Source: Verrucomicrobiia bacterium (GTDB taxonomy: Bacteria; Verrucomicrobiota; Verrucomicrobiia; Verrucomicrobiales; Akkermansiaceae). From it: 41,356 bases of DNA. The translations under genes and the position numbers were made by a program. Position 1 is the stretch's first letter. Every line of letters begins with the position of its first letter. The DNA lies in NCBI GenBank assembly GCA_030432565.1, contig JAUIGV010000041.1:1-41356 (forward strand). The letters are read 5' to 3'. The notes beneath the pieces were generated by a model that saw nothing but the letters and a program-made list of their open reading frames with translations, ran no database searches and had not been told where the DNA came from. Shown here piece by piece: positions 3 to 31,178 of this stretch.

Positions 3-896
3 CCCCACAGTTTCTACTTCCCGGAGAAAAAATACGAAAAGAGTTTCGACCACGTGCGTGTGCCTTATCCGGAAACGGCCTTCCGGCTTGATGACAAGCC
101 AAAGTGGATCAGCCAACGCCTCAGCACTTGGCACGGGATTTATGGTCCGCTCTTTGATTGGCGGAAGGAATTCCCCGATACCTCGGCTGCCGGAATGCTC
201 GATTTTGAAAAGATGGTGCGTGCCTACTGGGGCACCCTGCTTTCAGTCGATGACTCGGTTGGCCGCCTTTATGCCTACCTGAAAAAGATCGGACAGCTCG
301 ACAATACCCTCTTCATCTTCACCAGCGACAATGGTTTGCTTGAAGGCGAGCACGGCATGGTGGACAAACGTACCGGCCATGAACCTTCGCTGCGCATCCC
401 GCTGGTCGTTCGTTATCCCGCTCTCACTTCTTCGGCCAGGACGATCGAGGCCCAGACCCTCACCCTCGATTTTGCCTCCTCCATTCTGGAAATCTGCGGA
501 GCCCCGCCGCTCCCAAAAACCCAGGGCCGGTCCTGGAAAAAGCTCGTCACCACCGGGGATCCGGATTGGCGTAAGAGTTGGTACTACGAATACAACTACG
601 AGAAGCAATTCCCCTACACGCCCAACGTCCGCGCTCTCCGCACCGACGAGTGGAAATACATCCGCTATCCACACGGTGACGGCTCTCCGGACAAGCACAT
701 GGCCGAGCTCTATCATCTCAAAACCGATCCCGGCGAAACCACCAATCTCATTGGGGATGAGAAATACAAAGCAACCGTCGCGAGGCTCAGAAAAGAACTC
801 GACCAACGAATCGCGGAATCTCATCCCGGAGGCAAAGACAAGATGCCCATGGACGAAGGGATCAAAGGCGAGCTGCCCGACGAAAAGATCAGGTAG
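3..896 (+). CDS. Sulfatase (type I), 3' part only
   Basis: The frame is open from the left edge, so this is the C-terminal ~297 residues of a longer gene. The GTG at 54 is only an internal codon, because residues before it ([18 protein letters not shown]) read as normal sulfatase sequence. The part present shows the late sulfatase core: '[19 protein letters not shown]', which supplies the metal-binding Asp-Asn pair, then 'RIPLVVRYP' and the C-terminal '[10 protein letters not shown]...[15 protein letters not shown]' block that closes the alkaline-phosphatase-like fold. The family hydrolyses sulfate esters in the periplasm or outside the cell using a formylglycine made from Cys. The Cys motif and signal peptide lie off-window, so activation and export cannot be judged. 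It converges on the DUF4407 gene with a 23-bp gap. The substrate is unknown; the sulfatase call itself is firm. Confidence 0.9.
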
Positions 897-2776: not shown

Positions 2777-3163
2777 CTACGGCGAAATTAGGAATGTCGC
2801 AGTCATGTCGTCTTCTGTGCCGTATGCCCTGTCTTTACCAGGGCTCTCGATTGTGAAGTCGTGCTTGCGGATTCTTATCTTGAAAGGGTTCTCCCATGCA
2901 TCACGAACTTCTTTTTGCCCCAGCCAAGATCCATAGTAGATCAGATTGGCCGAGTCCATATATTCAAAGAGTTCTTCAGGACTCATCCTTTCGAAGTTTT
3001 TGGGGGCATCTTCGCCCCTGAGCCCTAGCCTTAGTCCTGTTGCGAGATCGCTCATCGCTCGTTGAGTGAGTGGCTTTCCCCTGCCCTTTTCACTGATCTT
3101 ACAAGAAGTCAGAGAGATCATAAGAACCACGATACCGATGAATCGAGGAAGGTGGGACGTCAT
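2777..3163 (-). CDS. Small lipoprotein with T2SSG-like C-terminal motif
   Basis: A 128-residue protein with an N-terminal signal ending in a lipobox-like 'LTSC' (Cys about residue 21), so it is probably lipidated and envelope-anchored. The C-terminal half contains 'DAWENPFKIRI...FTIESPGKDRAYGTEDD', which resembles the end of type II secretion pseudopilins of the GspG class: an Asp-x-Trp-x-Asn-Pro turn, then a Gly/Asp calcium-type loop. The prepilin N-terminus is absent, so this is not a pilin. Its ATG overlaps the stop of the upstream sulfatase (ATGA, 3160-3163), indicating translational coupling as the last gene of the sulfatase operon. The function is unknown. The call rests on the lipobox and the motif; homology to T2SSG is suggestive only. 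Confidence 0.75.
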   Translation of the reverse strand: MTSHLPRFIGIVVLMISLTSCKISEKGRGKPLTQRAMSDLATGLRLGLRGEDAPKNFERMSPEELFEYMDSANLIYYGSWLGQKEVRDAWENPFKIRIRKHDFTIESPGKDRAYGTEDDMTATFLISP

Positions 3164-4563
3164 TTTTTTGTTGATTCTGGGACCCCTTCGAGTTCGGCCA
3201 TCACTTCGGTTTTCCAGGTGGAAAGTTCGGCTGCCATGCGCTTGGCAACCTCCGGTTTTTCCTCGATGAGGTTTGTTTTTTCGCCGGGATCGGAGATGAG
3301 GTCATAGAGTTCGTCGCCTTTTGGTCGGGAGATGAGCTTGTAGCGGTTTTCGATCCAAGCGGCTTCCTTGCCATTCTTGTTGAGAAAGCCGAGGGGCTTC
3401 TTGCGTTCGGTTTGCTTACCGGTGGCGAAGGGGAGGATATCGACGCCGTCGTAGGTGCGGTCCGTGGGAAGAGGGACATCAAGAGCGGCGAGGATGGTGG
3501 GAAAGTAGTCGGAAGTGAAACAGGGCGCGGTGACGGTGCGCGGCTCTTTGATTTTCTCCGGCCAAACCATGAGGCCGGGAACTCGGATGCCTCCTTCGTT
3601 GAGGGAGAGTTTGTAGCCTTTGAGATTCTTGGCGGTGCCGACATGGCGGGGCGAACCTTGTCGGGCAGGGCCGTTGTCGGAGCAGAAGCAAATCATAGTG
3701 TTGTTGGCAATGCCGAGAGATTTTAACTCGGCACGGAGGCGGCCGATTTGCTCATCCATCGCGGTGAGGCAGGCGTAGTAGTGCTGCGCATGTTCCGGTT
3801 GGCCGTGATACATTTCGCGATACTTCGGACCGCCGACGACGGGGGAGTGCGGGGTGTGAAACCAGACGGCGGCAAAGAAGGGCGATTTCTTTTCGGCGGC
3901 GTTTTGAATGAAGGGAAGGGCGCGGTCCATGATGACGCGTGAGTCATCGCCTCTGGTGTTTTCAGTGACGGTGGTTCCCGGACCGCTAAAGTAGTCGTTA
4001 CCGTATGGTTTGCCGGGATTGCCATCGCTGGATTTTTTCTTTTTGATGGGGCCGGGATCGACGAGGGGATCCCAGGTGGGGACTTTTGATTCGGTGACGA
4101 AGGAGACGTCGACGTCGCGTTCCCAAGGAGGGCAGTAGTAGCGGGCGGGCTCTTTGGCAAAGGTGCCCCAGCGTTTTTGGTCTCCTTTTTCCTTGGAGAG
4201 GGTGCCGAGATGCCACTTGCCAAAGTGTCCGGTGGTGTAGCCGTTCTTTTTAAGAATGGAGGTGATGGGTATTTCGGTTGGCTCAAGCATGCCTGCCATG
4301 GCGTAGGTGATGCCATAGCGGTAGGGATTACGCCCGGTGTAGCAACTTCCGCGGGTTGGCGAACACATCGCGGCGCCGGAGTAAAAGCGGGTGAAAGTCA
4401 CCCCTTCGGCCTGCATTTGATCGAGGTGGGGAGTCTTGAGGTGGGGATGACCGTTATAGCCAACATCGCCCCAACCCTGGTCATCCGTCATGATGAGGAT
4501 GATGTTGGGATGGTTTGCCGCAAGGAGAGAGGCTGATGCGCAGAGAAGAAGGATGAATTTCAT
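3160..4563 (-). CDS. Exported type I sulfatase (arylsulfatase A-like)
   Basis: 467 residues with a short signal peptide (MKFILLLCASASLLAA) and a complete sulfatase core. The metal-binding 'MTDDQGWGD' has its Asp pair at about residues 27-28. The formylglycine motif 'MCSPTRGS' places Cys67 and Arg71 in the standard C-x-P-x-R pattern. The catalytic 'GHFGKWHLG' (Lys and His) and the later 'CFCSDNGP' and 'NLKGYKLSLNEGG' blocks are present, as is the C-terminal 'YKLISRPKGDELYDL...DPGEKTNL'. It hydrolyses sulfate esters, probably in the periplasm or at the surface. It starts 13 bp after the preceding sulfatase gene and overlaps the next gene by 4 bp, so it lies inside an operon. The sequence style is of the S1 arylsulfatase type; subfamily and substrate cannot be assigned by eye. 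Confidence 0.95.
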   Translation of the reverse strand: MKFILLLCASASLLAANHPNIILIMTDDQGWGDVGYNGHPHLKTPHLDQMQAEGVTFTRFYSGAAMCSPTRGSCYTGRNPYRYGITYAMAGMLEPTEIPITSILKKNGYTTGHFGKWHLGTLSKEKGDQKRWGTFAKEPARYYCPPWERDVDVSFVTESKVPTWDPLVDPGPIKKKKSSDGNPGKPYGNDYFSGPGTTVTENTRGDDSRVIMDRALPFIQNAAEKKSPFFAAVWFHTPHSPVVGGPKYREMYHGQPEHAQHYYACLTAMDEQIGRLRAELKSLGIANNTMICFCSDNGPARQGSPRHVGTAKNLKGYKLSLNEGGIRVPGLMVWPEKIKEPRTVTAPCFTSDYFPTILAALDVPLPTDRTYDGVDILPFATGKQTERKKPLGFLNKNGKEAAWIENRYKLISRPKGDELYDLISDPGEKTNLIEEKPEVAKRMAAELSTWKTEVMAELEGVPESTKK

Positions 4564-4576: not shown

Positions 4577-6400
4577 TCACTCTATCTCTGCTTCGGTGCG
4601 AAAGAAATGCCGATTTACCTCAGGCTGCAAAAGGCGAAAGCGAAGCCATGGGGTGCTGTCATCCTGCCCTTGGCTGGTGTTGAGAAACTCAAGCGGGGAA
4701 GTCGACCAGTTCTTAAGATCAGTTGAGGTGGAGGGAAAGAGGGTGAAGTCGTTTGGTTCGGACGACAGCTGAAAGGAAAAGACCGCCTCAGGGCCCCGGC
4801 CCAGATCTTCAAAAACAAGGGAAGGCTCTGACTTGGAGGAAGGCACCAGAGGATCGGTGCCGCTGAGGTATTCCATCAGGTTGCTCAACCCATCTCCGTC
4901 GGCATCTGCCGTTGGATCAAGAAGCCGGGCGTTGTTGTCGGCCCATGTTTCGTAGGTGATGCCCGGGCGTGATGATTGCACCCGGAGTAGGTTGGCCAGA
5001 TTCGTGGTGAGCTCGGGATTGCTTGCGGAAATGTCGGCCAGCTCGTAACGGTGTCCGGTGAGATCGTAGAGGTCGTTGACTCCGCCCCCGGAGCGGATGA
5101 GCCGGTGGGTTTCGGTTCGGATCGCGGTGATGCTTCCCCAGCGGGAGTAAGCGTGGTTTTTTCCGGGTGCGAAGGGATTGCGAAGCATGGGAACGAGAGA
5201 GCTTCCGACGGCGGTCGCGGGAACTTGATCGGAAAGGCCGCAGAGGTCGGCGATGGTGGGGTAGATGTCGATGCTCTCAACCACGCCGTTGGTCGTCAGG
5301 CCGGCGAAGGCTTTGGGATTGCTGGATTCGGGGGCACGGATGATGAGCGGGGATTCAACCGCGCGTTCCAGAACGGAGTGTTTCCCGATACGTGCGTAGT
5401 CATCGATGCACCATCCGTGGTCGCCCCAAAGAACGACGACGGTGTTTTTATCAAGGCCGAGGGCTTCGAGTTCATCGAGCACCTTGCCCACCTGGGCATC
5501 CATGTAGGAGATGCTGGCAAAATAGGCCCGGCGCAAAATATCACGGTCGCCGATGGCGGTGTAGGCGTTGGGTTCGCCGGAGCTACCGGTCGAGGAATTG
5601 GCCCCGGTGGGTGGTGAAACCGGGTCAGGGCCGGGGAGCACTTCGGGCGGGTAGAGGTCGAAGTAGGCTTTGGGTGCGTTGAAAGGGAGATGCGGTTTGT
5701 GGAAGCCAAGGGCGAGGCAGAACTGTTTGTCGTCATCCTTGAATTCACGCAGTTTTTCAATCGCGGCGAGAGCCATCTGACCGTCGGGATAAGCCTCGTC
5801 GGGGAGGGAATTTCCTTCCTCGTCAACCCCGATCTCGTAAGCGGGAGAGACGTTGCGGACGCGACCGGTGCCGTCGGCATAGGCGAAGAGCGGGTAGCGT
5901 CGGGCGCCCCATTTGTCGTGATCATAAATGATCTCGTCGAAGGAAAAGCGCATGTCCGGTTCGTTAGCCCGGGAGCGGTTGTCGTCGTAGTTGGAAGGAA
6001 AGGACCAGCGGAAGCCATCGGGTTCGTGGGTGATCTTTCCCATCGATGCGGTGTGCCATCCATTTTGGCGGAGAAGGTGAATCCAGCTTTCCGGACTTGC
6101 GGTCTCGGTGGCGGGCATGGCGTTGAAGGCATTGTTGTCATCGCTGGCCGAGGTGGGGCGACGCCCGGTCATGAGGGCGTAGCGGGAGGCCCCGCAAGTG
6201 GGGACGGCGACATAGTGGTTGCGGAAGAGCCGACCTGATTGCGCCAAGGCGTCAATGTGGGGTGTGTGCATGTGCTCTTCGCCGTAACACCGCAGTTCCG
6301 GGCGGAGGTCATCGACCGCAATAAGGAGAATATTTGGAGCGGCAAGAATACTTCCCTGAAGTCCAAGCAGCGAAATAGTGGCGGTAATGAGATGATTCAC
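4577..6400 (-). CDS. Exported type I sulfatase with TSP3/FFR C-terminal extension
   Basis: 607 residues, longer than the usual 450-500. A signal peptide (to about Ala20) is followed by the core: 'LLIAVDDLRPEL' (Asp30-Asp31), formylglycine motif 'PTCGASRYALMTGRRP' (Cys69, Arg73, a C-x-A-x-R form), 'SMGKITHEP', and 'VVVLWGDHGWCIDDYARIGKHS'. This pattern is iduronate-2-sulfatase-like. After the catalytic domain come a TSP3-like segment ('DPTADADGDGLSNLMEYLSG') and an ~80-residue beta-rich tail ending 'NRHFFRTEAEIE', the same type of ending as other exported proteins in this window. The tail is likely to attach or orient the enzyme outside the cell (inference). The start is GTG and overlaps the stop of the upstream gene (GTGA, 6397-6400), so the sulfatase is translationally coupled to the TSP3 paralog protein. 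Confidence 0.93.
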   Translation of the reverse strand: MNHLITATISLLGLQGSILAAPNILLIAVDDLRPELRCYGEEHMHTPHIDALAQSGRLFRNHYVAVPTCGASRYALMTGRRPTSASDDNNAFNAMPATETASPESWIHLLRQNGWHTASMGKITHEPDGFRWSFPSNYDDNRSRANEPDMRFSFDEIIYDHDKWGARRYPLFAYADGTGRVRNVSPAYEIGVDEEGNSLPDEAYPDGQMALAAIEKLREFKDDDKQFCLALGFHKPHLPFNAPKAYFDLYPPEVLPGPDPVSPPTGANSSTGSSGEPNAYTAIGDRDILRRAYFASISYMDAQVGKVLDELEALGLDKNTVVVLWGDHGWCIDDYARIGKHSVLERAVESPLIIRAPESSNPKAFAGLTTNGVVESIDIYPTIADLCGLSDQVPATAVGSSLVPMLRNPFAPGKNHAYSRWGSITAIRTETHRLIRSGGGVNDLYDLTGHRYELADISASNPELTTNLANLLRVQSSRPGITYETWADNNARLLDPTADADGDGLSNLMEYLSGTDPLVPSSKSEPSLVFEDLGRGPEAVFSFQLSSEPNDFTLFPSTSTDLKNWSTSPLEFLNTSQGQDDSTPWLRFRLLQPEVNRHFFRTEAEIE

Positions 6401-8130
6401 TGGGCAGCTTGGCTTGAGTAGATTTCGAATCCATTGAGCAGAAGAAAGCGATCTGCTCCGTTGGTCTCGGTGGCTGAAAGTTCGATGGTGACAGGGTTGG
6501 AGCCGTCGTGGGTGAAGGCGAAAGCCAGAGCCGGAATATCGGTGTCGGCAATCGAGGTTGTCCCAAGACCGGCGGCTCCCAGCGAGGTAGGGGTGATCGA
6601 CCCCTTCAAATCCCCTGCTAGGCGGGCCTCGATGTTATTTGGAGAGGTCGGGGAAGTCCCGCCGGCAAAGCCAAGATTGGCACCGGTGATGGGGTCGAGG
6701 TGATATGAGGTCCAGAGGTAGGTTCCGGCGGCGAGGTTATTGAAGGTGATCTCGAGAGCTGAAGTACGAGATCCGATGAAGTCGGCCACCAGAAAGGAAC
6801 GCGAGAGGTCGCCGCCGGGGATGGCGCGACTTGAATCGCCGTTGGCGCCACGAAATTCGAATGGCGAATCGTCGGCGGTGGCAATCGTCACGGTAACGTC
6901 GCCAATTTTTTTGGTTAGCGGAGAGGCGGTGCCGGATACTCCCGAGATGACCCGAAGTCCGGAGTAACTTGGGGAGCCGGGCGATTCGCTCGAGTTAAAA
7001 TCGACGCCGAACAATCTGAGCCCGAAGTTGCTTTCGGGATCGTTGGGGTCGGTTCCAGCGGAGACTTCAATTCCGTCGCTGACCGAGTCGCCATCGCTGT
7101 CACTTTTAAGGGGGTTGGTTCCGGTGTCAGAGGAGTCGACAAAGGTTCCTGATCCGGACTCCACGCCGTCGAGCAGGGTGTCGCCGTCGGTGTCGGGATT
7201 GTTGGGGTCGGTTCCGAGGGACAGTTCGAGATCGTCGTTACTGCCGTCGTCGTCCGTATCGGGATCATTGGGATTGGTCTCGTCACCGGTTCCGGGTGAT
7301 CCGTCTTCACCACGGTATTCGGAGATGTTGGTGAGGTTGTCATTGTCGAGGTCGAGCGCGGCATCATTCACATTCGGATCGAGTCCGTTTGCCGTTTCGT
7401 AATCATCGGGCATGCCATCGCTGTCGGTGTCAGCTGGAGGTGCCACACCTTCCACGGTCACGTTTGAGAAGGACGCGGATGAAGCATTGAGAGTCCCGCC
7501 GAGGAGAATGCCGACGGCGTCATAGGTGAAGCTGGCGGGAGACGCGGGCGAGTTGGTTTCGGGCCACTCAACGAGGAGGTCCCCGCCGTCTGTCAGGGAC
7601 GCGGAAGTTTGGATCTGCGTGGCATCAACGCGAGTGATGCTCAGGGTGAAAGTGAGAGATTCGTTGAAATCCGGGGTTCCGCCGTCTGGGTCGGCGGCGG
7701 AGGAAATAACGGTGGCGGCTGCGCCGGAAAAAGGATTGGTGGTTGAACCGTTGGCACGATTGAGGCCGGCGCTGCCGTTGTTGGCGGTGGCCCAAACCCC
7801 GACGTATCCGCTTCCCGCGCCGGTGGCGGGAATTCCGGGAGCGTCGAAAAGCCCCCAGCGGAGTTGGTTGCCGGGGAGAGCTCCTCCGCCGGAGGTGATG
7901 GTGACAGATCCAGTCAGTCGAATGGTCTGTCCCACGGAAAGTGTGACTGACGGAAAGCTTCCGACGATGGTTTCGGCGTCGGCATCGGTGGTGACCGGAG
8001 AGTTGGTGGCCGCACTGCCTGCCGTGAAGCCGGTGTCGCCATTGGTGGCGACCCAATTGATGGCGGGTTCCGCCTTCGAATGCCCGAAGCAGGCCAAAAG
8101 AGCCAAACTCCGGGTGAAGTTTTTGGTCAT
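6397..8130 (-). CDS. Exported paralog C: beta-rich domain, TSP3 repeats, extra C-terminal domain
   Basis: 577 residues. A signal peptide (to about 'SKA') is followed by a ~210-residue domain shared with the next two genes upstream: 'NWVATNGDTGF', 'TNSPVTTDADAETIVGSF', 'GNQLRWGLFDAPG', 'GYVGVWATANNG', 'WPETNSPASPASF', 'VGILLGG'. Next come four or five TSP3-like calcium-binding units (DTDSDGMPDDYE, DLDNDNLTNISEY, DTDDDGSNDDLE, DTDGDTLLDGVE, DSDGDSVSDGIE). A further ~170-residue beta-rich domain begins near 'FGLRLFGVDFNSS' and ends 'DRFLLLNGFEIYSS'; it resembles PEP-CTERM-type exported domains but lacks the sorting signal. I do not recognise the family of the shared domain. The function is unknown; extracellular ligand binding is plausible from the context. 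It lies 6 bp after paralog B and overlaps the downstream sulfatase start. Confidence 0.85.
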   Translation of the reverse strand: MTKNFTRSLALLACFGHSKAEPAINWVATNGDTGFTAGSAATNSPVTTDADAETIVGSFPSVTLSVGQTIRLTGSVTITSGGGALPGNQLRWGLFDAPGIPATGAGSGYVGVWATANNGSAGLNRANGSTTNPFSGAAATVISSAADPDGGTPDFNESLTFTLSITRVDATQIQTSASLTDGGDLLVEWPETNSPASPASFTYDAVGILLGGTLNASSASFSNVTVEGVAPPADTDSDGMPDDYETANGLDPNVNDAALDLDNDNLTNISEYRGEDGSPGTGDETNPNDPDTDDDGSNDDLELSLGTDPNNPDTDGDTLLDGVESGSGTFVDSSDTGTNPLKSDSDGDSVSDGIEVSAGTDPNDPESNFGLRLFGVDFNSSESPGSPSYSGLRVISGVSGTASPLTKKIGDVTVTIATADDSPFEFRGANGDSSRAIPGGDLSRSFLVADFIGSRTSALEITFNNLAAGTYLWTSYHLDPITGANLGFAGGTSPTSPNNIEARLAGDLKGSITPTSLGAAGLGTTSIADTDIPALAFAFTHDGSNPVTIELSATETNGADRFLLLNGFEIYSSQAAQ

Positions 8131-8136: not shown

Positions 8137-9090
8137 TTAGGGTTGGGGAACCTCACTGACCCGGAAAAAAGCGCGACTTCCAAGGTTGCCGAGCGCTTCA
8201 GGAATGACGAATGAAGTTGCCGTTCCCTCCGCTTCGGCAGGAATGCTGTCATCAATGTTGATGGGCCAGGTGACCAGATCCGAGCTGGTATCGATCGAAT
8301 AGACCCGGCCTGGAGTTGAAGTCCAAGTTAGGGTGATTGCGCCGGTGGCGGTGTCCGTGTTGATACTTGAGATCGCGAGCGGTTCCGTCTCATCGACGCC
8401 GTAGTCGACCTCGACGTTTGTGTAGGTTGCTTTGGTGGCGTCGGTTGTCCCTCCGAGAAGGAATCCCACGCTGTCGTAAACGAAGCTCGCGGGGGAAGCC
8501 GGAGAGTTGGTCTCCGGCCACTCAACTTCAAAATCCACGCCGTTGGTGAGTGTGCCGGAGGTGGTGATTTGGGTATCGTCGAACCGGGTGATGGTTAATG
8601 AGAAGGTCAGTGTTTCATCGAACCGGGTTGCCCCACCGGCGTTGGTCACCGTTGAGATGACCGTGGTGGCACTTCCCGAGAATGGATTACCGGTGCTGCC
8701 ATCGGCGCTACGAATGTTGGCAGGGCCGTTGTTGGCTGTCGCCCAAACTCCAACGTAGTTATCTCCGACTCCGGTTTCAGGGGTGGAGGGTGCGTCGAAG
8801 AGGCCCCAGCGGATTTGATTTCCCGGAATCACTCCGGTGCGGCCGGTAATGATGACACTTCCGGTGAGGGTGATCGATTGGCCGATCGCAAGAGCGACCT
8901 CCGGAAAGCTTCCGACGATGGTTTCGGCATCGGAGTCGGTGGTGACAGGCGAGTTGGTTAACTCGGAGCCGTCGGAGAATTCGGCATCACCATTGGTGGT
9001 GACCCAATTGGTGACCGGGATCGGAGTCGCACTTAGTTTTGCGAGCGCGAGAAGGAGCCAAGGCAGGCCGCGGAGTGGGTTGGATTTCAT
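8137..9090 (-). CDS. Exported paralog B: beta-rich domain with FFR-type C-terminus
   Basis: 317 residues from the ATG at 9090; an upstream extension to 9249 would run through the previous gene and lose the signal peptide. The signal is 'MKSNPLRGLPWLLLALAKLSA'. The shared domain follows: 'NWVTTNGDAEF', 'TNSPVTTDSDAETIVGSF', 'GNQIRWGLFDAPS', 'YVGVWATANNG', 'WPETNSPASPASF', 'SVGFLLGG'. The C-terminal ~90 residues form a separate beta-sandwich-like unit ('ISSINTDTATGAITLTWTS...YSIDTSSDLVTW') ending 'SRAFFRVSEVPQP', the FFR-type end seen in several exported proteins here. Gaps are 7 bp to paralog A upstream and 6 bp to paralog C downstream, so all three should be co-transcribed. Exported and probably surface-associated; biochemical role unknown. 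Confidence 0.85.
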   Translation of the reverse strand: MKSNPLRGLPWLLLALAKLSATPIPVTNWVTTNGDAEFSDGSELTNSPVTTDSDAETIVGSFPEVALAIGQSITLTGSVIITGRTGVIPGNQIRWGLFDAPSTPETGVGDNYVGVWATANNGPANIRSADGSTGNPFSGSATTVISTVTNAGGATRFDETLTFSLTITRFDDTQITTSGTLTNGVDFEVEWPETNSPASPASFVYDSVGFLLGGTTDATKATYTNVEVDYGVDETEPLAISSINTDTATGAITLTWTSTPGRVYSIDTSSDLVTWPINIDDSIPAEAEGTATSFVIPEALGNLGSRAFFRVSEVPQP

Positions 9091-9097
9091 GTTTGTT

Positions 9098-9844
9098 TTA
9101 GCGTCGACGGCGAAGAAGGCCCAGGGTTGCGACGAGCCCCAGGAGTAGAGCGGATGGTTCCGGAATTGCCGTGACGGTGGCATCGACATTGGAAAAGGTT
9201 GCCTGGGTGGCATTGGTCGTGCCTCCCAAAAGAATACCGACGGAATCAAATGTGAAACTTCCTCCAGCCGGAGTTCCGGTGGTTTCAGGCCACGAAATCA
9301 AGGTTGAACCGCTGCCCGCATCTTCGAGTGATCCGCTTACTGAAATTTGGGTGGCGTCCACCCGGGTGACGGCGAGGAGGAAATTGTAAGTTGAACCGTA
9401 GGAAGGGAGTGTCCCGGAGCCACCGGCGATGGTGGTGGATGCGCTTCCTGAAAATGGATTGGTCGTGCTGCCGTTTGCCGAATCAATATTGCTCGATGCG
9501 GCTGCCCAAACTCCAACGTAGCCCGACCCGTTTCCAGTGGCTGGAGTTCCCGGGGCGTCGAAGAGGCCCCATCGGATTTGGTTGCCTGGAATTAATCCGG
9601 TGTTTCCAGTGATGCTCCAGCTACCGGTTAGCGTGATGGTCTCACCTTCGGACAAGGTGACCCCGGAGAAGCTGCCGACGATTGCGTCCCCATCAGCATC
9701 GGTCGTCACAGGGGAATTGGTAGCGGTGCTTCCCGCAGTGAACCCGGCATCGCCGTTGGTGGTCACCCAATTAATCACTGCTGCACCGTTCGAAGCAGCA
9801 ATTGTGGCAGACAAGGCAAGGATCGGAAGGAATGGTCTTTTCAT
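9098..9844 (-). CDS. Exported paralog A with PEP-CTERM sorting signal
   Basis: 248 residues from the ATG at 9844. An open frame extends further upstream through the neighbouring sulfatase, but only this start gives a signal peptide (MKRPFLPILALSATIAASNG). The shared domain follows at about residues 25-220: 'NWVTTNGDAGF', 'TNSPVTTDADGDAIVGSF', 'GNQIRWGLFDAPGTP', 'GYVGVWAAA', 'SWPETTGTPAGGSF', 'SVGILLGG'. The protein ends in a textbook PEP-CTERM tail, 'IPEPSALLLGLVATLGLLRRRR': Pro-Glu-Pro, a hydrophobic span, an Arg cluster. Exosortase normally recognises this, cleaves it and delivers the protein to the cell surface or an extracellular matrix. No exosortase is in the window. It is the first of three tandem paralogs inside a sulfatase operon. 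Ligand and function are unknown; sorting is well supported. Confidence 0.9.
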   Translation of the reverse strand: MKRPFLPILALSATIAASNGAAVINWVTTNGDAGFTAGSTATNSPVTTDADGDAIVGSFSGVTLSEGETITLTGSWSITGNTGLIPGNQIRWGLFDAPGTPATGNGSGYVGVWAAASSNIDSANGSTTNPFSGSASTTIAGGSGTLPSYGSTYNFLLAVTRVDATQISVSGSLEDAGSGSTLISWPETTGTPAGGSFTFDSVGILLGGTTNATQATFSNVDATVTAIPEPSALLLGLVATLGLLRRRR

Positions 9845-9917: not shown

Positions 9918-11282
9918 CTACCTTTGAGATTTTTTTGTTTTGGTCTCGGGTGCCGGATTCTTCGGGAGCCATTTGGCGAGAAGTTTTTTCGCCACTTGAT
10001 GTTCGGGAAGACTTGCGAGGTTGGTGAATTCATCGGGATCATTGCGATGATCATAGAGCTCTTCGGCTCCATCAGCGTAGTGGATGTAACGCCAGTCTTT
10101 GGTTCGGAGGGAGTGGTTCCCGAAGTAGCTTGAGGAGAGAACGGGTTCTTTTCGGACGGCTGCGGGATCCTTGAGTTGGGGACGGAGGGAGAGACCGTCG
10201 AGTTGAGGTGGCTTCGGGAGGCTGCAGAGGTCGACCAGGGTGGGGTAGATGTCGAGGAGGCTGACTGCTTCGGGGCAGTTTTTCCCGGGTTTGATTCCGG
10301 GGCCGGCGATGAGGAGTGGGGTGCGGGTGGATTCTTCCCAGAGGGTGCGCTTGGCCCAGCGTTGTTTCTCGCCGAGGTGAAACCCGTGATCGCTCCAGAG
10401 GACAATGATGGTGTTGTCTTTGTTCGGGCCGTCGCGCAGTCCCTCGAGAACGGTGCCTACGCAATGGTCGGCAAAGCTCACGCAGGCGAGGTAGGCATGC
10501 ACCATTTCACGCCACTGCTTCCTTGCGAGGACTTCGGTATGTGTGGGCTCGACGTTGAGGCGGCCTTTGAAGTTTGGCGGGAGGTCATCGAGATCGGAAA
10601 GGGGCGCCCTGGGCAACGTGATCTTGTTTCGTTCATAAAGATCAAACCACTTTTGTGGAACAAACATGGGAACGTGAGGTCGGAAGATTCCCACCGACAT
10701 GAAGAAGGGTTGGTCGTGTTTTTGTCTAAGAGCTGCCGCGGCTTTTTGCGCGAGTTGGAAGTCCTTCATTTGATCATCGGACTCCGGAAACGCACCCCAG
10801 TCCCAAGCCCGGCTGAATCCGTTGATTATTTTCTTTGGGCGAGGTCCTCCGTAGCCGCCAAGATTGATGTCGATGGCTTCCTTGAGTTCGCCGGTGAAAC
10901 CGTGGTGAAGTATCTTGCCTCCGGCGAATGTGCGGTAGCCGTTCGTTTTGAACCAAGCCTGCATGCAGGGCGCGGTCTTGAGTCGCGGGATGCTTTGATA
11001 GGAGGGGCCGAGATCATAGGAGCCGTGGGTGGTGGCGTGAAGGCCCGACATCACGCTGACCCGTGAAGGAGAGCAGACCGGGACGACGCAGTGGGCGTTA
11101 CTGAAGTTCCGCCCCTGCCTGGCAAGGAGGTCCATGTGGGGTGTCTTCGCATCGGGATGACCGTCGAGAAAACCCACCCAGTCGTTGAGGTCGTCGATGC
11201 AGATCATGAGGACGTTGGGCGGTCTCTCGTCTGCGGTGGCGGACAAGAGACTCAGCAACGCGATCTGGATGAAGCGGATCAT
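9918..11282 (-). CDS. Exported type I sulfatase (iduronate-2-sulfatase-like)
   Basis: 454 residues with a short signal peptide ending near 'SATA'. Core motifs: 'NVLMICIDDLNDWVG' (Asp30-Asp31), 'VPVCSPSRVSVMSG' (formylglycine Cys70, Arg74, C-x-P-x-R), 'FAGGKILH' (Lys and His), 'PFFMSVGIFRPHVPM', 'IIVLWSDHGFHLGEKQRWAK' and the C-terminal 'DWRYIHYADGAEELYDHRNDPDEFTNL'. The 'DDLNDW' and 'SDHGFHLGEK' blocks are characteristic of iduronate-2-sulfatase-like enzymes, but homologs in polysaccharide-degrading bacteria act on several substrates. The ATG overlaps the stop of the upstream sulfatase (ATGA, 11279-11282), so two sulfatases are translationally coupled. Downstream, paralog A begins after 73 bp. 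Located in the periplasm or at the surface. Confidence 0.95.
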   Translation of the reverse strand: MIRFIQIALLSLLSATADERPPNVLMICIDDLNDWVGFLDGHPDAKTPHMDLLARQGRNFSNAHCVVPVCSPSRVSVMSGLHATTHGSYDLGPSYQSIPRLKTAPCMQAWFKTNGYRTFAGGKILHHGFTGELKEAIDINLGGYGGPRPKKIINGFSRAWDWGAFPESDDQMKDFQLAQKAAAALRQKHDQPFFMSVGIFRPHVPMFVPQKWFDLYERNKITLPRAPLSDLDDLPPNFKGRLNVEPTHTEVLARKQWREMVHAYLACVSFADHCVGTVLEGLRDGPNKDNTIIVLWSDHGFHLGEKQRWAKRTLWEESTRTPLLIAGPGIKPGKNCPEAVSLLDIYPTLVDLCSLPKPPQLDGLSLRPQLKDPAAVRKEPVLSSSYFGNHSLRTKDWRYIHYADGAEELYDHRNDPDEFTNLASLPEHQVAKKLLAKWLPKNPAPETKTKKSQR

Positions 11283-12715
11283 TCAGTTTTTACGGCTTCC
11301 TTTTTAAAGACGTCGAACTCGGGGTTGACGCACTTATTGCCCCAGCGTTTGTAAATGGCACGAAGGTGTTCTTTCGACTCGGGTTGCTCACCTTTGTCGC
11401 CGGTTTCCTTGATCCATTTCGTGAGGAGTTCGCGGTGACGCTTGAGTTCACCGGCAAACTTGGGATTGTTGGCGAGGTTGTTGATCTGATGCGGATCTTT
11501 TTCGAGATCATAGAGTTCTTCGGCCGGGCGCTTTCCGAAGAAGGCCCGGGTTGGAATCTTACCAAGTTCACCTTTGGCGTGGAGTTCGCGGAGTCGTTTG
11601 GTTTGCGCCTGACCGTCGCGGTATTGTGGCTGGAGGAGAATCCGATCGGTCATGAAGTTGCGGAGGTATCGGAATTTTTCTGTGCGCACGGTACGGATGC
11701 GATCGATGGTGTAATCGCATCGGTCACGCGCTGAAACCACGTGGTCGCGCGCTTGGTAATTTTCGCCGAAGAGGTCTTGTCCGTGGAGATAGTTGGGGAG
11801 TGCGATGCCGGCGAGGGCGAGAGTGGTGGCGGAGATATCAAGGCCGCTGACGAGTTCGTTTCGGGTGGCATTCTTCTCAATTCCCGGGCCCGAGATGATG
11901 AGGGGAACGTGGACACCCCCTTCGTAGCAGAATTGCTTGTGCCGAAGCGAGTGGTTGTTGCCGTGGTCGGAGAAGAAAAAGACGATGGTATTTTCAAGGA
12001 GTCCATCGGCCTTGAGGCGGTCCATGATTTCTTTGACGTGGCCATCGGTGACGCGGACGGTGTCGTAGTGGTGAGCCCATTCTTGGCGGAAGATTTCCTC
12101 GTTGGGGAAGTAGGGCGGGACCTTCATCGTGGAAGGATCGACCTTGTCGGTGAGCTTTCTGGTGTTGGTCTTTCCACCCCCGAGTTGGATCTGTCCGAAC
12201 CAAGGCTGTCCATTCGGGACTGCGGACCAGTCGGCCTGGCCTTTTTTGCCATAGAAACCCTTCTTGCCGGGTTTTGGTTTCTGGGTGTCGGCGGAGTAAT
12301 GCTCTTTGCGGTTGTAAACGAAGTTGTAGTCGTCCTTTCCCTTGTTGAAGGTGGCGTAACCGTGCTCGATGAAAATCTGAGGCAGGGTTTTAATTCCTGC
12401 GGGCAATTGGATCGCGGCTTCGGGGCTGCGGGAGGAGCGATGTTGATGAGTGCCGGTGGTGGTTTGGTAGACCCCGGTGATCATGGCGGAACGGCAGGCC
12501 GAGCAGACCGGGGCGGGAACGTAGCAGCGGGAAAAGCGAATGCCGTCTTTGCTGAGTTTGTCCAGAGTGGGGGTCTTTCCGGCGTTGACGGGGAAGCCGT
12601 AGGATTCCATCCAGGGTGAGAGATCCTCACAAAAGATCCAGAGGATATTTGGTTTGTCCGCGGCCGAAGCGGGGAGCGAGAAGAGAGTGACAAGGAGGAC
12701 GAGAAGGCGCTTCAT
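11279..12715 (-). CDS. Exported type I sulfatase, C-S-A-C-R variant
   Basis: 478 residues from the ATG at 12715; an open frame continues 12 codons upstream but the signal peptide (MKRLLVLLVTLFSLPASA) starts here. The metal site reads 'LWIFCEDLSPWM', with Glu30-Asp31 in place of the usual Asp-Asp. The formylglycine motif is 'APVCSACRSAMITG' (Cys71, Arg75), a C-x-A-x-R form with a second Cys inside the motif. 'FFFSDHGNNHSLRHKQFCYEGG' and 'EELYDLEKDPHQINNL' complete the fold. The Glu-Asp site is typical of the sulfatase branch that includes heparan N-sulfatase-like enzymes, so the substrate may be an N- or O-sulfated sugar; this is inference from family resemblance. It is the first gene of the minus-strand sulfatase operon and is preceded by a 184-bp divergent intergenic region that should hold the operon promoter; I could not identify a convincing one. 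Confidence 0.94.
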   Translation of the reverse strand: MKRLLVLLVTLFSLPASAADKPNILWIFCEDLSPWMESYGFPVNAGKTPTLDKLSKDGIRFSRCYVPAPVCSACRSAMITGVYQTTTGTHQHRSSRSPEAAIQLPAGIKTLPQIFIEHGYATFNKGKDDYNFVYNRKEHYSADTQKPKPGKKGFYGKKGQADWSAVPNGQPWFGQIQLGGGKTNTRKLTDKVDPSTMKVPPYFPNEEIFRQEWAHHYDTVRVTDGHVKEIMDRLKADGLLENTIVFFFSDHGNNHSLRHKQFCYEGGVHVPLIISGPGIEKNATRNELVSGLDISATTLALAGIALPNYLHGQDLFGENYQARDHVVSARDRCDYTIDRIRTVRTEKFRYLRNFMTDRILLQPQYRDGQAQTKRLRELHAKGELGKIPTRAFFGKRPAEELYDLEKDPHQINNLANNPKFAGELKRHRELLTKWIKETGDKGEQPESKEHLRAIYKRWGNKCVNPEFDVFKKEAVKTE

Positions 12716-12899
12716 GGCTCGCCAGCTTAGGTTTCTGTCAGGTGATCGCAATCAAGCAGATGAATTTTATCGGTAATTTTCGGGGAGGCGTTCAATTCGC
12801 CTTGGGATCGGGAAGTTGGGAATGACACCATCTTTTGGAGCCATGGACAATTTGTGCCAAATCTTCCATCGAATCATACTCGCCTTTTGGCGGTGAAAA

Positions 12900-16065: not shown

Positions 16066-17070
16066 ATGAAATTGATTTGCCTCACGCTGCTTGCAGCCCA
16101 GCTCCCCATGTCTGGAGATCGTTTGCCGTCGGGGCCGGGTTTGGCTGCCCTTTATCCAGCTGATCAGGGAATCGAAAAAGATGCCAGGGTTGTGCAGGTC
16201 GAGGCTTTTGAGCAGCAGAAAATCAACCAGCTGATCTCCGGTTGGGAGTCGGTGAAATCAGAACGAGATCTAAGCTTCAGCGATGAACGTCCGCAGCAAA
16301 GCGGAGGTAAAAAATCTTTGTTGATGGATCGCAAGTCAGGCCCCGGAGGGGCGCTTTACCGGCGGATTAAGAACGCTGAAGGTGGTTTTGGTTTTGAGCA
16401 ACTCTTCGTTCGCTACTATGTGAAGTTTGCGGAGGATTGCGGCGAGCTGCATCACTTTGGAACCTGTCTCGGAGGGAATAATCCCGCGACCGCGTGGCCG
16501 AGCGTGAAGGCCGGATTTCCTACCGATGGAGCGAAGTCATTTTGGTCGGGAATCGAGCCATTCGGCAAACGATGGACCTGGGACTACTACACCTACTGGT
16601 GTGAGATGGGCGGCAGTCCTCCGCGCGGACAAACCTGGGGGAATAGCTTTATCCACGATGAGTCGCTCAAGGTGAAGAAGGGGAAATGGATTTGCATCGA
16701 GCAGATGATCAAGATGAACGATATTGGCGATACCAACGGGGAACAGGCCCTCTGGATTGACGGCAAACTGGTCTCCCATTTGGGAAAGGGTTTCCCAAAG
16801 GGGCGGTGGATCTTCGACAAATTTCAGCCGGGCCGAAGTGGTGACGGGGTGCGTTGGAATCAGAAGGAAAACACGCGGGACTACTTCAAGGTTCCCGAAG
16901 GCGGATCTCCTTTCGAAGGCTTTCGCTGGCGCACCGTACCGGAACTCAACATCAACTTCCTCTGGCTTTACGTTTACACCGAGAAACCGGCCGGTCACCA
17001 AATCAAGGTCTGGTTCGATGATGTCGTGGTCGCCACGGAATACATCGGCCCCCTGGTGGCAAAGAAATAG
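16066..17070 (+). CDS. Predicted exported jelly-roll protein, polysaccharide lyase-like
   Basis: 334 residues with a weak N-terminal signal (MKLICLTLLAAQLPMSG). The body is Trp/Tyr/Gly-rich with features of concanavalin-like polysaccharide lyases: 'LYRRIKNAEGGFGFEQLFVRYYVKF', 'DCGELHHFGTCLGG', 'WDYYTYWCEMGG', 'KGKWICIEQMIKMND', 'GEQALWIDGKLVSHLGKGF', and the closing strand 'IKVWFDDVVVATEYIGP'. The 'W-x-x-E...dG.x.xWiDGK' block and the final 'FDDVVVAT-YIGP' strand are the parts shared with PL14/PL20-like jelly rolls. I cannot fix the CAZy family or catalytic residues by eye, and a non-catalytic role is possible. It starts 11 bp after the DUF3313-like gene and converges on a sulfatase with a 3-bp gap. 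A chain-cleaving enzyme next to sulfatases would fit a sulfated-polysaccharide locus. Confidence 0.65.
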   Translation: MKLICLTLLAAQLPMSGDRLPSGPGLAALYPADQGIEKDARVVQVEAFEQQKINQLISGWESVKSERDLSFSDERPQQSGGKKSLLMDRKSGPGGALYRRIKNAEGGFGFEQLFVRYYVKFAEDCGELHHFGTCLGGNNPATAWPSVKAGFPTDGAKSFWSGIEPFGKRWTWDYYTYWCEMGGSPPRGQTWGNSFIHDESLKVKKGKWICIEQMIKMNDIGDTNGEQALWIDGKLVSHLGKGFPKGRWIFDKFQPGRSGDGVRWNQKENTRDYFKVPEGGSPFEGFRWRTVPELNINFLWLYVYTEKPAGHQIKVWFDDVVVATEYIGPLVAKK

Positions 17071-27740: not shown

Positions 27741-30700
27741 TTATCTCGCCACCCTGAAGAAGCGAATCAGAGGATTTTCGGAGATATCGATGACTGCTTC
27801 ATACTCTCCCGGGGTGGTTTCGGAAAATCCGGTATTGGTGGTTAAGTCGTCTGCAAATGTCTCCATCTGTTCCGAGCCGAGCATCCGCCAGTCGCTTATC
27901 CCCGGTTCTCCCCCAAAGCGGATCGTGAAATTTGATCCTCTCAATTGGGTGCCAAGGATTGAAATCGGAATTGGCTCGGTCCTTATCACGATGGTCAGAT
28001 TATTCCATTGCGCGCCAGCTCCGCCGAATGTCGATGCGTTTTCTGGTTCAACATACGCGATCAGGGTCGCGGTGTCGAAGGCACCGTTTTCCACTGTCTG
28101 CGGACTCGAGCCCAGGAAAGTGATACTCGCCAGTTCGAGACAAACCCGGAATGCGCTTTGGCTGATCTGTATCACTGATTCTCCCAAAGTGACATGGGAT
28201 AGTGCCATGCAGCGGAAGAAGGCAGCGGAACCGATCGTTTCCACTTGGTTTGGGATAACGACTGTCTGGAGTGCTTCACATTCGGTAAACGCAAGATCTC
28301 CAATGGCTTTTAGCCCGGAACCCAACTGGAGGTCGCTCAGGCTTACGCAGTATTCGAAGGCCGAGACTCCGATTCGCTCGACCTTATCAGGAATCACGAT
28401 CCTGGTTAGCCTGCCACATCGTTCGAATGCAGAGTCGCCGATTTCTGTCAGGCTCTCGGGAAGGGTGATCCGGGTGAGTGCCGAACCGGCAAAGGTGGAT
28501 GCCCGCAATGATTTTACCCCGTTCGGAATCACAATATCGGTAATTCTGCTCCCTGCAAATGCCGACCTTCCGATTTCGACAAGAGTGTCAGGAAGGTCGA
28601 CTTCAGCCAGCTGAGAACAGTCTTTAAACGCTGAACTGTAAATATGAGTCAGACATTCTCCGAAACTCACCGAGGAAATTGCAGTTCCCGCGAAGGCCGA
28701 AGCCCCAATTTTGGTGACGCTTGCGGGGATGTTTACGGTTTCAAGTGCACTGCAATCGAAAAATAGAGATGTTGGGATTTCCTCAAGGTTCGCATTAATT
28801 TGAACGCTCGAAAGGCGCCGGCATCTGAGAAATGCCGCCCCGCCCAAATCGGTGACTGTTTCTGGAATGACCAGATCTGTGAGGAAATTACACTCTCTGA
28901 ACGCATCTATTCCAATAGATTGGATCCCGTTTGGAATCGTGATTTCAGACAGGTTGAAACAACTCTCAAAGGTGGAAGCTTCGATCCTTGTAACTCCCTC
29001 CGGAATGGCGAACGTCTCCAGGGCACAGCCTTCAAATGCCGATTCTCCGATAGCAAGGGTGGAGTCCGGAAGGGCGGCTTCAGTGAGCTTGCCACAGAAG
29101 TGGAAGGCTGACTTGCCAATCTCAACAATGCCGTCTCCAAAGTCGACACGCTCGAGATTACGACATTGAGCGAAAGCTGAAGCACCGACTTTTGTGAGGC
29201 TGTCCGGGAGAGTGATGTCGACGACATAGGTGCCGGAAAACGCGAAAGGAGAGATTTGCCGGACTCCATTCGGGATCGCGACTTCTTCGATTTGCCAGCA
29301 TCCTTCGAATGCCGAATGACCGATAATTTCGAGGAAGTCTGGAAGCTCGATTTCCCCCAATCCCCAGCAATTTTGAAAGGCTGATGCTCCAAGGCCCTTT
29401 AAAGTGCCTGGAAGCCGGATGGAGGTAATTGAACTGTTCTCGTCGAACCCGCTAATACTGAGCACTGGAAGATTTTCCAATTGTGAAGGGACGAAGACAC
29501 TTCCCCGTGCGTCGTTGTGATCAACGATGAAGGCTGCGACATCACTCAATAGATATTTCAGATTCCCGGCAGTTGCCGGTGTGACCGGAGTTCCGAAGAA
29601 GGCTTTCGAACCAATCGCCTGGAGGCCACTTCCGAGCGTGAGGTTGTTGAGTGAGGTGCAGTTGGCAAACGAGGAAGCTCCAAGCTCCTTGACGCTATCA
29701 GGAATGAAAACCCGGGGCAGGTTCCCGCAGTCTTGAAAACAGGAATTGCCAATCGAGACCACGTTTGCGCCCAAAGTCAGTGAGGCGAGATTTGCACATG
29801 ACTGAAATGCCGAATGATCGATCGCAGTGATGGAGTCGGGGATGATTAGGCTGACCAAGCCGGTGCATCCTTGAAAGGTGGATGCTTCAATGATGGTGGT
29901 GTTCGCGCCAATCGGTGCTCTTGCCAAACTTGTGCAATCTTGAAAAGCGGCGGGTCCTACTTTCACGACGCTGTCCGGAATTTCGATCAATGAAAGACTG
30001 GAACAAAAGGAAAACGCCGATTCTCCGATTGATCGGACGTTTTCTCCCATCTCCACCTCGCTGAGGCTGTTGCAGTAGGAAAATGCGCTGCGCCCAATTC
30101 CTGTGACCGCGTCTGGAATGACAATAGAGGAAAAGCGGCATCCCCAAAAAGTTGAGTCACCGATCTCAGTGATTCCTTCCGGAATAACAATGCGAGTCAG
30201 GGGACTTGACGCAAAAGCTCGATCACCAATTTTTGTCACTCCCGGCGGGATTTCAAGACTACTGAGATTCCGACACCAATTGAAGGAAGCGTGACCAATT
30301 TCAGTCAAGCCGGCTGGCAGGGTGACGCTTGTCCAAAGACTGCCTGCCATTGCCGAGTCGCCAATTTTGGTCACCGGAAATCCTTCAATCGTATCAGGGA
30401 TGACGAGATCGCCCACCGAGTTAGGATCGGTGTCTATGATGGTGACCTCGTCATTTTTGATAGACCAAGTGAGACCCTCGAGTGGAGTTGCGGCTTTAAT
30501 GCCGGTGATCTGGAGATCGAACCCGAGGTCGGAGCTGGTGGCGACTACATTGTGCAGGGAAAAGGCAATGACGTGCTCGCCGGCCTCAAGGCCTTCTTCG
30601 ATGAAATAATTTGTTATTCTTACTTCATCGCCGGCGCGAATTGAACTTGCGAAATAGGTGTCCTCACCTGCGAAGTTAAACCGCTCTATCAACTCTCCAT

Positions 30701-31106
30701 TCAGATAGAGAACCCCTCCGTCGTCGGCAAAAATCTCAATTTTCAAGCGCTCGTAGTCTTCCGTCGTCGTGATCGTCTTCCTGAAGTAGGCCGAATGTCG
30801 ACTGCCTCTTGGCGGCTCTCCTATATTTGTGACGACTGGTGTAAGATCAATACTGCCATATCCGAGCATTGCAGGAGAAGGGCCCAGGAAGGGCGCTCCA
30901 TCATACTGGGACGGGGTGTGCCAGGTTTCTCGAAAGTCCGGGTCCGCGACCACCGGATCGCTGGCATCGAGGGGATGAAGGTATTCCCAGGATGATCCGA
31001 AAGGGAGAATTTGTTGCGCTCTTACGAAGCCAAAACAACAAAGAATAGCGATGAAAGTAAAAGGATAGATCCGACTCTTTGCAGAAGGATTCGAGGTGTC
31101 ATTCAT
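27741..31106 (-). CDS. Exported BspA-type leucine-rich-repeat protein
   Basis: 1121 residues from the ATG at 31106; a TTG at 31127 is less likely. After the signal peptide ('FTFIAILCCFGFVRA') comes a ~170-residue galactose-binding-like domain ('MLGYGSIDLT', 'SAYFRKTITTTEDYERLKIEI', 'DDGGVLYLNGELIERF', 'SSDLGFDLQITGI'), which resembles the insert in the metalloprotease at 35066-38221. The bulk (about 230-1030) is roughly 34 BspA/LRR_5 repeats of ~23 residues with the pattern 'IGxSAFxxCxxLxxVxIPdsV'. A C-terminal ~90-residue beta domain ends 'NPLIRFFRVAR', the FFR-type end. BspA-like proteins are surface adhesins or binding proteins. No enzyme domain. The repeat DNA is diverged enough not to form perfect tandem DNA repeats. 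Confidence 0.93.
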   Translation of the reverse strand: MNDTSNPSAKSRIYPFTFIAILCCFGFVRAQQILPFGSSWEYLHPLDASDPVVADPDFRETWHTPSQYDGAPFLGPSPAMLGYGSIDLTPVVTNIGEPPRGSRHSAYFRKTITTTEDYERLKIEIFADDGGVLYLNGELIERFNFAGEDTYFASSIRAGDEVRITNYFIEEGLEAGEHVIAFSLHNVVATSSDLGFDLQITGIKAATPLEGLTWSIKNDEVTIIDTDPNSVGDLVIPDTIEGFPVTKIGDSAMAGSLWTSVTLPAGLTEIGHASFNWCRNLSSLEIPPGVTKIGDRAFASSPLTRIVIPEGITEIGDSTFWGCRFSSIVIPDAVTGIGRSAFSYCNSLSEVEMGENVRSIGESAFSFCSSLSLIEIPDSVVKVGPAAFQDCTSLARAPIGANTTIIEASTFQGCTGLVSLIIPDSITAIDHSAFQSCANLASLTLGANVVSIGNSCFQDCGNLPRVFIPDSVKELGASSFANCTSLNNLTLGSGLQAIGSKAFFGTPVTPATAGNLKYLLSDVAAFIVDHNDARGSVFVPSQLENLPVLSISGFDENSSITSIRLPGTLKGLGASAFQNCWGLGEIELPDFLEIIGHSAFEGCWQIEEVAIPNGVRQISPFAFSGTYVVDITLPDSLTKVGASAFAQCRNLERVDFGDGIVEIGKSAFHFCGKLTEAALPDSTLAIGESAFEGCALETFAIPEGVTRIEASTFESCFNLSEITIPNGIQSIGIDAFRECNFLTDLVIPETVTDLGGAAFLRCRRLSSVQINANLEEIPTSLFFDCSALETVNIPASVTKIGASAFAGTAISSVSFGECLTHIYSSAFKDCSQLAEVDLPDTLVEIGRSAFAGSRITDIVIPNGVKSLRASTFAGSALTRITLPESLTEIGDSAFERCGRLTRIVIPDKVERIGVSAFEYCVSLSDLQLGSGLKAIGDLAFTECEALQTVVIPNQVETIGSAAFFRCMALSHVTLGESVIQISQSAFRVCLELASITFLGSSPQTVENGAFDTATLIAYVEPENASTFGGAGAQWNNLTIVIRTEPIPISILGTQLRGSNFTIRFGGEPGISDWRMLGSEQMETFADDLTTNTGFSETTPGEYEAVIDISENPLIRFFRVAR

Positions 31107-31178
31107 GTGGGGGGATGGATGTATCAAGGTTTTCTGATCCTGAGGCTTTGATAAGACTAATAAGGGTGCGCTTGAGCT

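Follow-up and report, generated by a model that had tools for sequence, protein, structure and literature searches.

The stretch of DNA analyzed here, referred to as the window, comprises 41,356 nucleotides from a Verrucomicrobiia bacterium of the family Akkermansiaceae (GenBank assembly GCA_030432565.1, contig JAUIGV010000041.1) and is the entire contig C58 of a 5.93-Mb genome. It possesses an eight-gene run on the minus strand (12751 to 2777) that encodes two sulfatases, three paralogous proteins designated as A, B, and C, two more sulfatases, and a small lipoprotein-like protein, with successive gaps of -4, 73, 7, 6, -4, 13, and -4 bp. Genes A and B are thus 7 bp apart, B and C are 6 bp apart, and C overlaps the downstream sulfatase gene by 4 bp. 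A, B, and C each start with a signal peptide (judged by eye) and share a predicted lectin-fold domain. An earlier note on this DNA, made from the sequence alone, had described three different C-terminal ends (PEP-CTERM in A, an FFR-type tail in B, and TSP3 repeats plus a further domain in C) and had placed A-B-C between two pairs of sulfatases. The ends are as described, with PEP-CTERM-like and TSP3-like as the appropriate terms, and sulfatase pairs flank A-B-C on both sides, 4/4 exceeding the Pfam cut-off of PF00884. The features of the run are as follows (E, expectation value; aa, amino acids).

11279..12751, minus strand: sulfatase, first in the run; PF00884 E 2.5e-37; closest solved relatives S1_8B and S1_8A (9bbd, 'S1_8B sulfatase', E 1.5e-129); 4-bp overlap with the next gene.
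9918..11282, minus strand: second sulfatase; PF00884 E 4.8e-47; closest solved relative 6hhm (E 1.9e-52).
9098..9844, minus strand: gene A, 248 aa; signal peptide (by eye), lectin-fold domain, PEP-CTERM-like end.
9161..9781, minus strand: lectin-fold domain of A, by alignment and predicted fold.
9098..9169, minus strand: PEP-CTERM-like end of A (residues 226-248 plus stop); PF07589 16.0 bits, sub-threshold.
8137..9090, minus strand: gene B, 317 aa; signal peptide (by eye), lectin-fold domain, FFR end module.
8395..9018, minus strand: lectin-fold domain of B, by alignment.
8149..8379, minus strand: FFR end module of B, without a Pfam or NCBIfam family; sub-threshold fn3 match in two other bearers.
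6397..8130, minus strand: gene C, 577 aa; signal peptide (by eye), lectin-fold domain, TSP3-like stretch, C-terminal CCT domain.
7441..8070, minus strand: lectin-fold domain of C, by alignment.
7030..7434, minus strand: TSP3-like stretch of C (about residues 233-367); TSP3_bac 22.4 bits against a cut-off of 25; partial CglD/MtsD matches far under cut-off.
6406..7023, minus strand: CCT domain of C (residues 370-575, ~205 residues); CBM22-like in a low-confidence model.
6397..6400, minus strand: GTGA, in which the stop of C overlaps the start of the linked sulfatase; equal 4-bp overlap at 13/13 non-fused loci.
4577..6400, minus strand: linked S1_7-like sulfatase with a CGASR motif and a C-terminal extension; PF00884 E 4.6e-37, 128.4 bits; 6hhm E 5.6e-60; assigned with the clade tree.
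3160..4563, minus strand: fourth sulfatase; PF00884 E 5.6e-54; closest solved relatives 3ed4 and carrageenan sulfatases.
2777..3163, minus strand: small lipoprotein-like gene at the end of the run; T2SSG 17.7 bits, sub-threshold; 4-bp overlap with the fourth sulfatase.

The domain common to A, B, and C spans ~205 residues and is 59-65% identical between the paralogs (A/B 118/201, A/C 128/201, and B/C 134/206), which, together with the coordinates, confirms the claim that one domain occurs in three consecutive genes 6-7 bp apart. Because its profile scores are 258 bits for A, 286 bits for B, and 296 bits for C, the likeness is not due to chance. The motifs quoted in the earlier note are present with small variants: B reads NWVTTNGDAEF and C reads NWVATNGDTGF, and both have EWPET at the place of SWPET. 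When the genome was searched with A, five matches were obtained, namely the three window copies and two confined to the C-terminal end of A; a profile search likewise gave three domain copies. No Pfam, NCBIfam, or PHROGs family came near its cut-off across the domain, in agreement with the note, which gave no named family for it, and a sequence search of the PDB gave a best match of E 0.061 only. An AlphaFold2 model of the domain of A, built with 12 sequences, had a mean predicted local distance difference test score (pLDDT) of 70.8 and a predicted template modeling score of 0.75. Foldseek matched this model to 91 PDB chains at E <=0.001, with legume lectins first (4.4e-6), and VIA, whose best match was a C-terminal fragment of thrombospondin (Z 11.2; 161 residues, root-mean-square deviation 3.3), also placed many legume lectins at Z ~10 and CBM66 at 9.6. 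The predicted fold is a lectin-like, concanavalin-like beta-sandwich.

With its profile (A3) at E 1e-6 or better, the domain was found in 25/288 genomes of an order sample and 18/387 genomes of a phylum sample; phylum-sample matches better than 1e-50 were confined to the family of the window, and the records matching the domain are titled as Verrucomicrobiota. In G003, a genome of the same genus, the run is kept from the first to the fourth sulfatase with all three domain copies. G258, which is assigned to another family, carries A (PEP-ended), B (FFR-ended), C, and the sulfatase in that order; this bin is 89% complete and 7% contaminated, which makes the family placement risky. The A, B, and C types of G026 each lie on their own contig, A being truncated at the contig end.

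The genome contains 105 PF00884 matches, so any 20-kb stretch will often contain a sulfatase. Generic co-occurrence with sulfatases was therefore dropped as evidence, and a clade-specific test was used instead. Thirteen sulfatase matches scored >=557 bits, in 12/288 genomes, and every contig concerned carries the domain; the next match scored 463 bits (hypergeometric P 1e-14 for the 12/12 genome co-occurrence, kinship ignored). The gap between 557 and 463 bits is partly circular, as the sulfatase profile (A6) was made from ten domain-linked sulfatases. For this reason, we searched 260 genomes of the family with the window sulfatase alone and then tested the new loci. The prediction, fixed before scoring, was that five new loci would have the lectin-fold or CCT domain and fifteen control sulfatases would not; either domain was found at 5/5 new loci and 0/15 controls (Fisher p 6.4e-5). 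The length of the open reading frame (ORF; 831-1037 aa) was already known for three of the five loci when the prediction was made, and two controls (L173 and L176) sit on contigs of 5.7 and 5.5 kb with short flanks. A partial sulfatase match at a contig end (G236:C593) scored 376 bits across 239 positions.

In a tree made by a quick method without bootstrap, the linked sulfatases form a single clade (Shimodaira-Hasegawa-like approximate likelihood ratio test, SH-aLRT, 94) with 0/15 controls inside, and the clade has two parts, a CCT type (SH-aLRT 100) and a fused type (SH-aLRT 99). The window member (4577-6400) has the sulfatase fold family and the C-x-A/P-S-R motif, CGASR being present in ten/ten aligned rows, and is S1_7-like as judged from its nearest solved structure, 6hhm. 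The FFR module was considered as a tail of this sulfatase itself and rejected (3.0 bits). The tie of the domain to one sulfatase clade is well supported; the occurrence of homologs relative to sulfatases, which the earlier note had proposed to check, is thus non-random.

The sulfatase link extends to the last domain of C. All 13 non-fused linked sulfatases are preceded by a gene ending in the CCT domain, and in 13/13 of these loci that gene closes with ATGA or GTGA, four bases that enclose the sulfatase start (two of the sulfatases are truncated at contig ends, and the frames were derived from coordinates). The lectin-fold domain can lie outside the CCT gene, in a neighboring gene in G170 and G278 and in a separate PEP-ended gene in G701. 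No Pfam match was found for the CCT domain of C. Its model is weak (pLDDT 59.1); VIA matched it to CBM22 chains at Z 10.9-11.4, and no row named CBM22 was among the best 50 Foldseek matches listed, whole-enzyme rows aside. The weak model suggests a second carbohydrate-binding domain that is CBM22-like.

The C-termini of A and B differ in kind. A has PEP, a hydrophobic stretch, and an RRRR basic cluster at its extreme end, which is the PEP-CTERM layout, and the A copies of G003, G026, and G258 have like ends. A scan of ten small PEP-ended proteins with PF07589 placed one above the cut-off (L024, 26.6), with no match for A of G258. The genome of the window has three exosortase matches (PF09721) above the cut-off, one with an in-frame stop. 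B ends in ...FFRVSEVPQP, and this FFR module is C-terminal in 34/36 further FFR ORFs of the same genome. It is not confined to C-termini: in 4/6 fused proteins a hidden Markov model located it internally, just upstream of the sulfatase domain. The i-E values lie between 1e-5 and 8e-5 for G685, G697, G720, and G284; G009 gave 0.11, and G236 gave no match. The end of B is therefore a module able to sit internally and not a proven sorting signal, and it need not be a sorting end.

These data support only in part the claim of the earlier note that one domain is sent to three potentially different envelope locations. Only the end of A resembles a known sorting signal; the module of B also occurs internally, and the end of C is a separate, sulfatase-tied domain. 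The underlying idea, that the FFR module acts as a sorting signal in its own right and that A and B reside at different envelope locations, would account for the module standing in place of PEP-CTERM in at least 12/20 paralogs (twin-free profile; see below) and for its predominantly C-terminal position. We nevertheless regard it as improbable, given the internal modules and the failure to find a processing enzyme or known sorting family in Pfam and NCBIfam, fn3 being sub-threshold in two bearers.

The history of the two ends was traced with the domain tree, in which A-type copies from four genomes form a clade (95/89) and the B and C types cluster by type with weak support (64/21 and 56/26). 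With further loci included, three changes each were needed for PEP-ended and tail-ended copies, and forcing PEP-ended or tail-ended copies together was rejected (approximately unbiased test, p 5e-61 and 7e-55). Adjacent PEP-ended and tailed copies exist in four domain lineages, namely A/B, G009 with G021, G236, and G685, the last of which was found later and is absent from the tree; the adjacent copies are identical at 180/215 positions in G236 and 194/214 in G685. Either there were several origins of the PEP/tail pair, or homogenization acted on the domains while their ends were kept. The tail-type copy of G009 (L024:4060-5119) has an in-frame stop within the tail, which may be an assembly error or decay.

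Of the new points, the strongest is the repeated adjacency of two copies of one ectodomain, one with a PEP-CTERM end and the other with an FFR module, and no PEP/PEP pair was seen among the visible ends. We surveyed the genome of the window, in which 57 PEP-CTERM matches lie above the cut-off (A not included); 54 were matched to ORFs and examined with ~4 kb per side (L178-L231). A nearby paralog was present for 20/54, and 16 of these lie within 150 bp. None of the 18 visible paralog ends was PEP-ended; the ends of the other two paralogs (L189 and L217) were cut off. The FFR module was detected on 12/20 paralogs with profile A7, made from B of the window and its relatives without twins; profile A8, largely twin-built and hence circular, gives 14/20. 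Among the picked ORFs of the surveyed stretches, the module occurs in 11/17 twins versus 5/321 others, and two of these five are also twins, namely B itself and an ORF at L184 paralogous to a PEP-ended ORF. A loose FFR-end pattern was dropped after matching 84/338 ORFs, and the profile counts replaced it. The twins are frequently larger than their PEP-CTERM partners, and their ectodomains vary, including F5/8 type C and laminin-G/concanavalin as well as several with no assigned family. The A/B pairing is not special to this operon: it recurs in the same genome with other ectodomains. At L202, two such pairs stand in tandem.

Approached from the FFR side, the surroundings of a further 36 FFR ORFs in the genome yielded three more pairs. 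All 67 FFR matches together include 17 near a PEP-CTERM match versus 5.4 expected (0/5000 shuffles), an excess that is due to the twins; among the 53 non-seed matches, 4 lie within 3 kb of one versus 3.7 expected. Thirty FFR loci were taken from 12 other genomes, and one had no FFR ORF; of the 29 scored, which have short flanks, 8 have a paralogous PEP-ended neighbor, three of these being A/B itself. In G066, from another family, 5/24 PEP-ended ORFs (20 stretches) have a paralog, with 0/6 visible ends PEP and two cut. At 1e-10, the FFR module gives 10-58 matches in six other genomes of the genus, 41 in G258, and 36 in G236, and it is scarce elsewhere in the family, where four other genera have 1-2 matches each. 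The PEP/tail pairing is real yet lineage-bound.

Plain duplication and domain shuffling would explain the pairs if tandem copies took up C-terminal modules common in the exported proteins of the lineage, with no division of work. Both ends are indeed common here, as the 57 PEP-CTERM and 67 FFR matches indicate; apart from the twins, FFR proteins are near PEP-CTERM matches no more than expected (4/53); and 0/29 PEP ORFs of G153, a genome of the family of the window, have a nearby paralog. Tandem copies should, however, often retain the same end, yet 0/18 do so. The recurrence of the PEP/tail pair in separate domain lineages and the A-B-C-sulfatase order kept in G003 and G258 also argue against this explanation, which we consider quite unlikely.

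Legume-lectin folds commonly pair via their sheets. The PEP-CTERM copy could accordingly act as a receptor at the surface and retain its tailed or enzyme-bearing twin through like-with-like domain pairing, glycan binding being secondary. The 20/54 PEP-CTERM genes with a nearby paralog, 16 of them within 150 bp, the 0/18 PEP ends, and the often larger twins fit such homotypic docking, and so does a PEP-CTERM protein of G066 with an 'ITYVDA' domain, which stands beside an esterase protein with which it shares 47.8% identity across 207 residues. Against it, the domains of A and B are just 59% identical, and 34/54 PEP-CTERM genes lack a nearby paralog. On balance, we find docking rather unlikely.

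Starting from the observed domain, ends, gene order, sulfatase link, 4-bp overlap, and recurring PEP/tail pairs, from which we infer binding, substrate, and localization, our preferred reading is that one glycan binder, in an attached form (A) and an unattached form (B), serves the sulfatase coupled to C. We put it forward tentatively, as a possibility somewhat short of an even chance. The lectin-fold domain of A, B, and C would bind the glycan on which the linked sulfatase acts. A would be the cell-attached form, its PEP-CTERM-like end being processed by an exosortase and the protein kept at the surface, and B would be an exported version of this binder that has a small beta module where A has its anchor, and hence unattached or loosely attached. 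C adds the second predicted carbohydrate-binding domain; because their genes overlap, C and the sulfatase are probably made together, and they may work as a pair. The set would thereby hold one sulfated polymer in three places: at the cell through A, within the exported matrix through B, and at the enzyme through C with the sulfatase. This retains part of the binding-type and enzyme-display idea of the earlier note, which gains from the lectin-like predicted fold and from fusions to carbohydrate esterases and a sulfatase; a sulfated glycan as the ligand is still conjectural.

Several observations weigh against this reading. The domain model is moderate, with only 12 sequences behind it and pLDDT of 58.8-62.6 in the remaining four models; its Foldseek TM-scores are ~0.4-0.5; and the fold also occurs in enzymes, the Foldseek top ten including an endo-1,3-beta-glucanase and an ulvan lyase. 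Some domain copies have no linked sulfatase nearby (e.g., G066:C55, G048, and G253), and the esterase fusion of G037 adjoins other sulfatases, not the linked type. The PF07589 score of A is under the Pfam cut-off of 20.7, the FFR module of B can be internal, and twins are absent from G153, as described above. Finally, the PEP/tail pairing is seen with many other ectodomains and may say little about this sulfatase.

A broader reading is a lineage-wide scheme of two-form display for glycan binders, in which PEP-CTERM ectodomains, several of them lectin-like, exist as neighboring attached and unattached twins, one with an exosortase-type end and one with an FFR beta module and often extra domains. 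A/B beside the S1_7-like sulfatase would be one case, with C and the sulfatase as a coupled catalytic arm. We consider this generalization conceivable but doubtful.

Fusions and neighbors provide hints to the substrate. The domain is placed after a BD-FAE alpha/beta-hydrolase esterase in G066, G303, G170, and G037, and in G009 and G236 the lectin-fold domain and the sulfatase share a single chain with an SASA acetylesterase and a lamin-tail domain. An alpha-L-rhamnosidase gene lies near the G066 locus and a glucuronoyl-esterase-like gene near the G026 locus. 6HHM is P18_S1_7, an endo-2-sulfo-D-xylose sulfatase of the ulvan pathway of Formosa agariphila, and a table in the same paper includes an S1_7 enzyme for kappa-carrageenan (PMC9096561). 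The hints are compatible with an acetylated, sulfated glycan bearing xylose or rhamnose (ulvan or other), which we do not adopt as the substrate.

Several other genes stand near the domain copies and the linked loci. Exported proteins of ~1480 residues adjoin the fused sulfatase at L161:40-4497, where the lectin-fold domain occupies residues 30-239, and at L069:3314-7756, where the protein overlaps a domain match. Separate PEP-ended proteins with the 'ITYVDA...' domain stand next to lectin-fold proteins at L019:11254-12003, L063:3102-3857, L064:12026-12733, and L021:11317-12111; within the esterase protein of G066 this domain is found again. A FecR protein with a laminin-G domain (L061:6374-8011) and a sigma-70-type factor (L063:2327-2884) adjoin linked loci, and FecR/sigma-like genes were recognized by eye at L068:11261-13374 and L158:12924-15055; surface-sensing control of the linked loci is possible. 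CotH-kinase/lamin-tail proteins lie near the G026 copies at L017:8249-10780 (CotH by Pfam) and L016:10847-15343 (by eye). Elsewhere in the window are two further sulfatases (3-896, plus strand, truncated by the contig start; 17074-18495, minus strand), a polysaccharide lyase 14 match just under its cut-off (16066-17067, plus strand; 25.3 bits against 27), and a long leucine-rich-repeat protein of BspA type (27744-31127, minus strand).

The roles of most PEP-CTERM proteins are little known, and an adjacent paralog with a different end is a ready pair for probing the purpose of the anchor. Likewise, the clade-specific, overlapping-gene link of a lectin-fold/CBM22-like protein to one sulfatase provides a testable partner for that enzyme, and the linked loci may flag a sulfated glycan in this sulfatase-rich phylum, as the count of 105 in this genome illustrates. 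No description of PEP/FFR twins or of this lectin-sulfatase link was found in our searches of open-licence PubMed Central (PMC) papers.

Among known systems, the PEP-CTERM/exosortase (EpsH) system (Haft et al. 2006, PMC1569441) is matched by the PEP-hydrophobic-basic end of A, the exosortase matches of the genome, and its many PEP-CTERM genes. Few recognizable domains in PEP-CTERM proteins are reported in that paper, whose consulted parts do not describe a PEP-CTERM gene adjoining a paralog with another shared C-terminal module. L-type lectins and other concanavalin-like proteins (legume lectins, the thrombospondin C-terminal domain, and CBM66) resemble the domain in predicted fold and differ in having 4-16% identity in the VIA rows and no sequence-family match; the likeness to legume lectins is one of predicted fold alone, and the domain is not classed as a legume lectin. 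Thrombospondin, the top VIA match, also has type 3 repeats joined to this fold; C has its TSP3-like stretch joined in the opposite order. The last domain of C is likened to the xylan-binding CBM22 domains by the VIA scores of the weak model, and differs in that no CBM22-named chain was among the best 50 Foldseek matches listed. P18_S1_7 (6HHM; PMC9096561) is the closest solved relative of both the linked sulfatase and the sulfatase at 9918-11282. The substrate of the linked sulfatase does not follow from this relationship because S1_7, as tabulated there, includes a kappa-carrageenan sulfatase. What differs from P18_S1_7 is that the sulfatase gene described here is found coupled to a gene with the CCT domain, or else the enzyme is fused to the lectin-fold domain.

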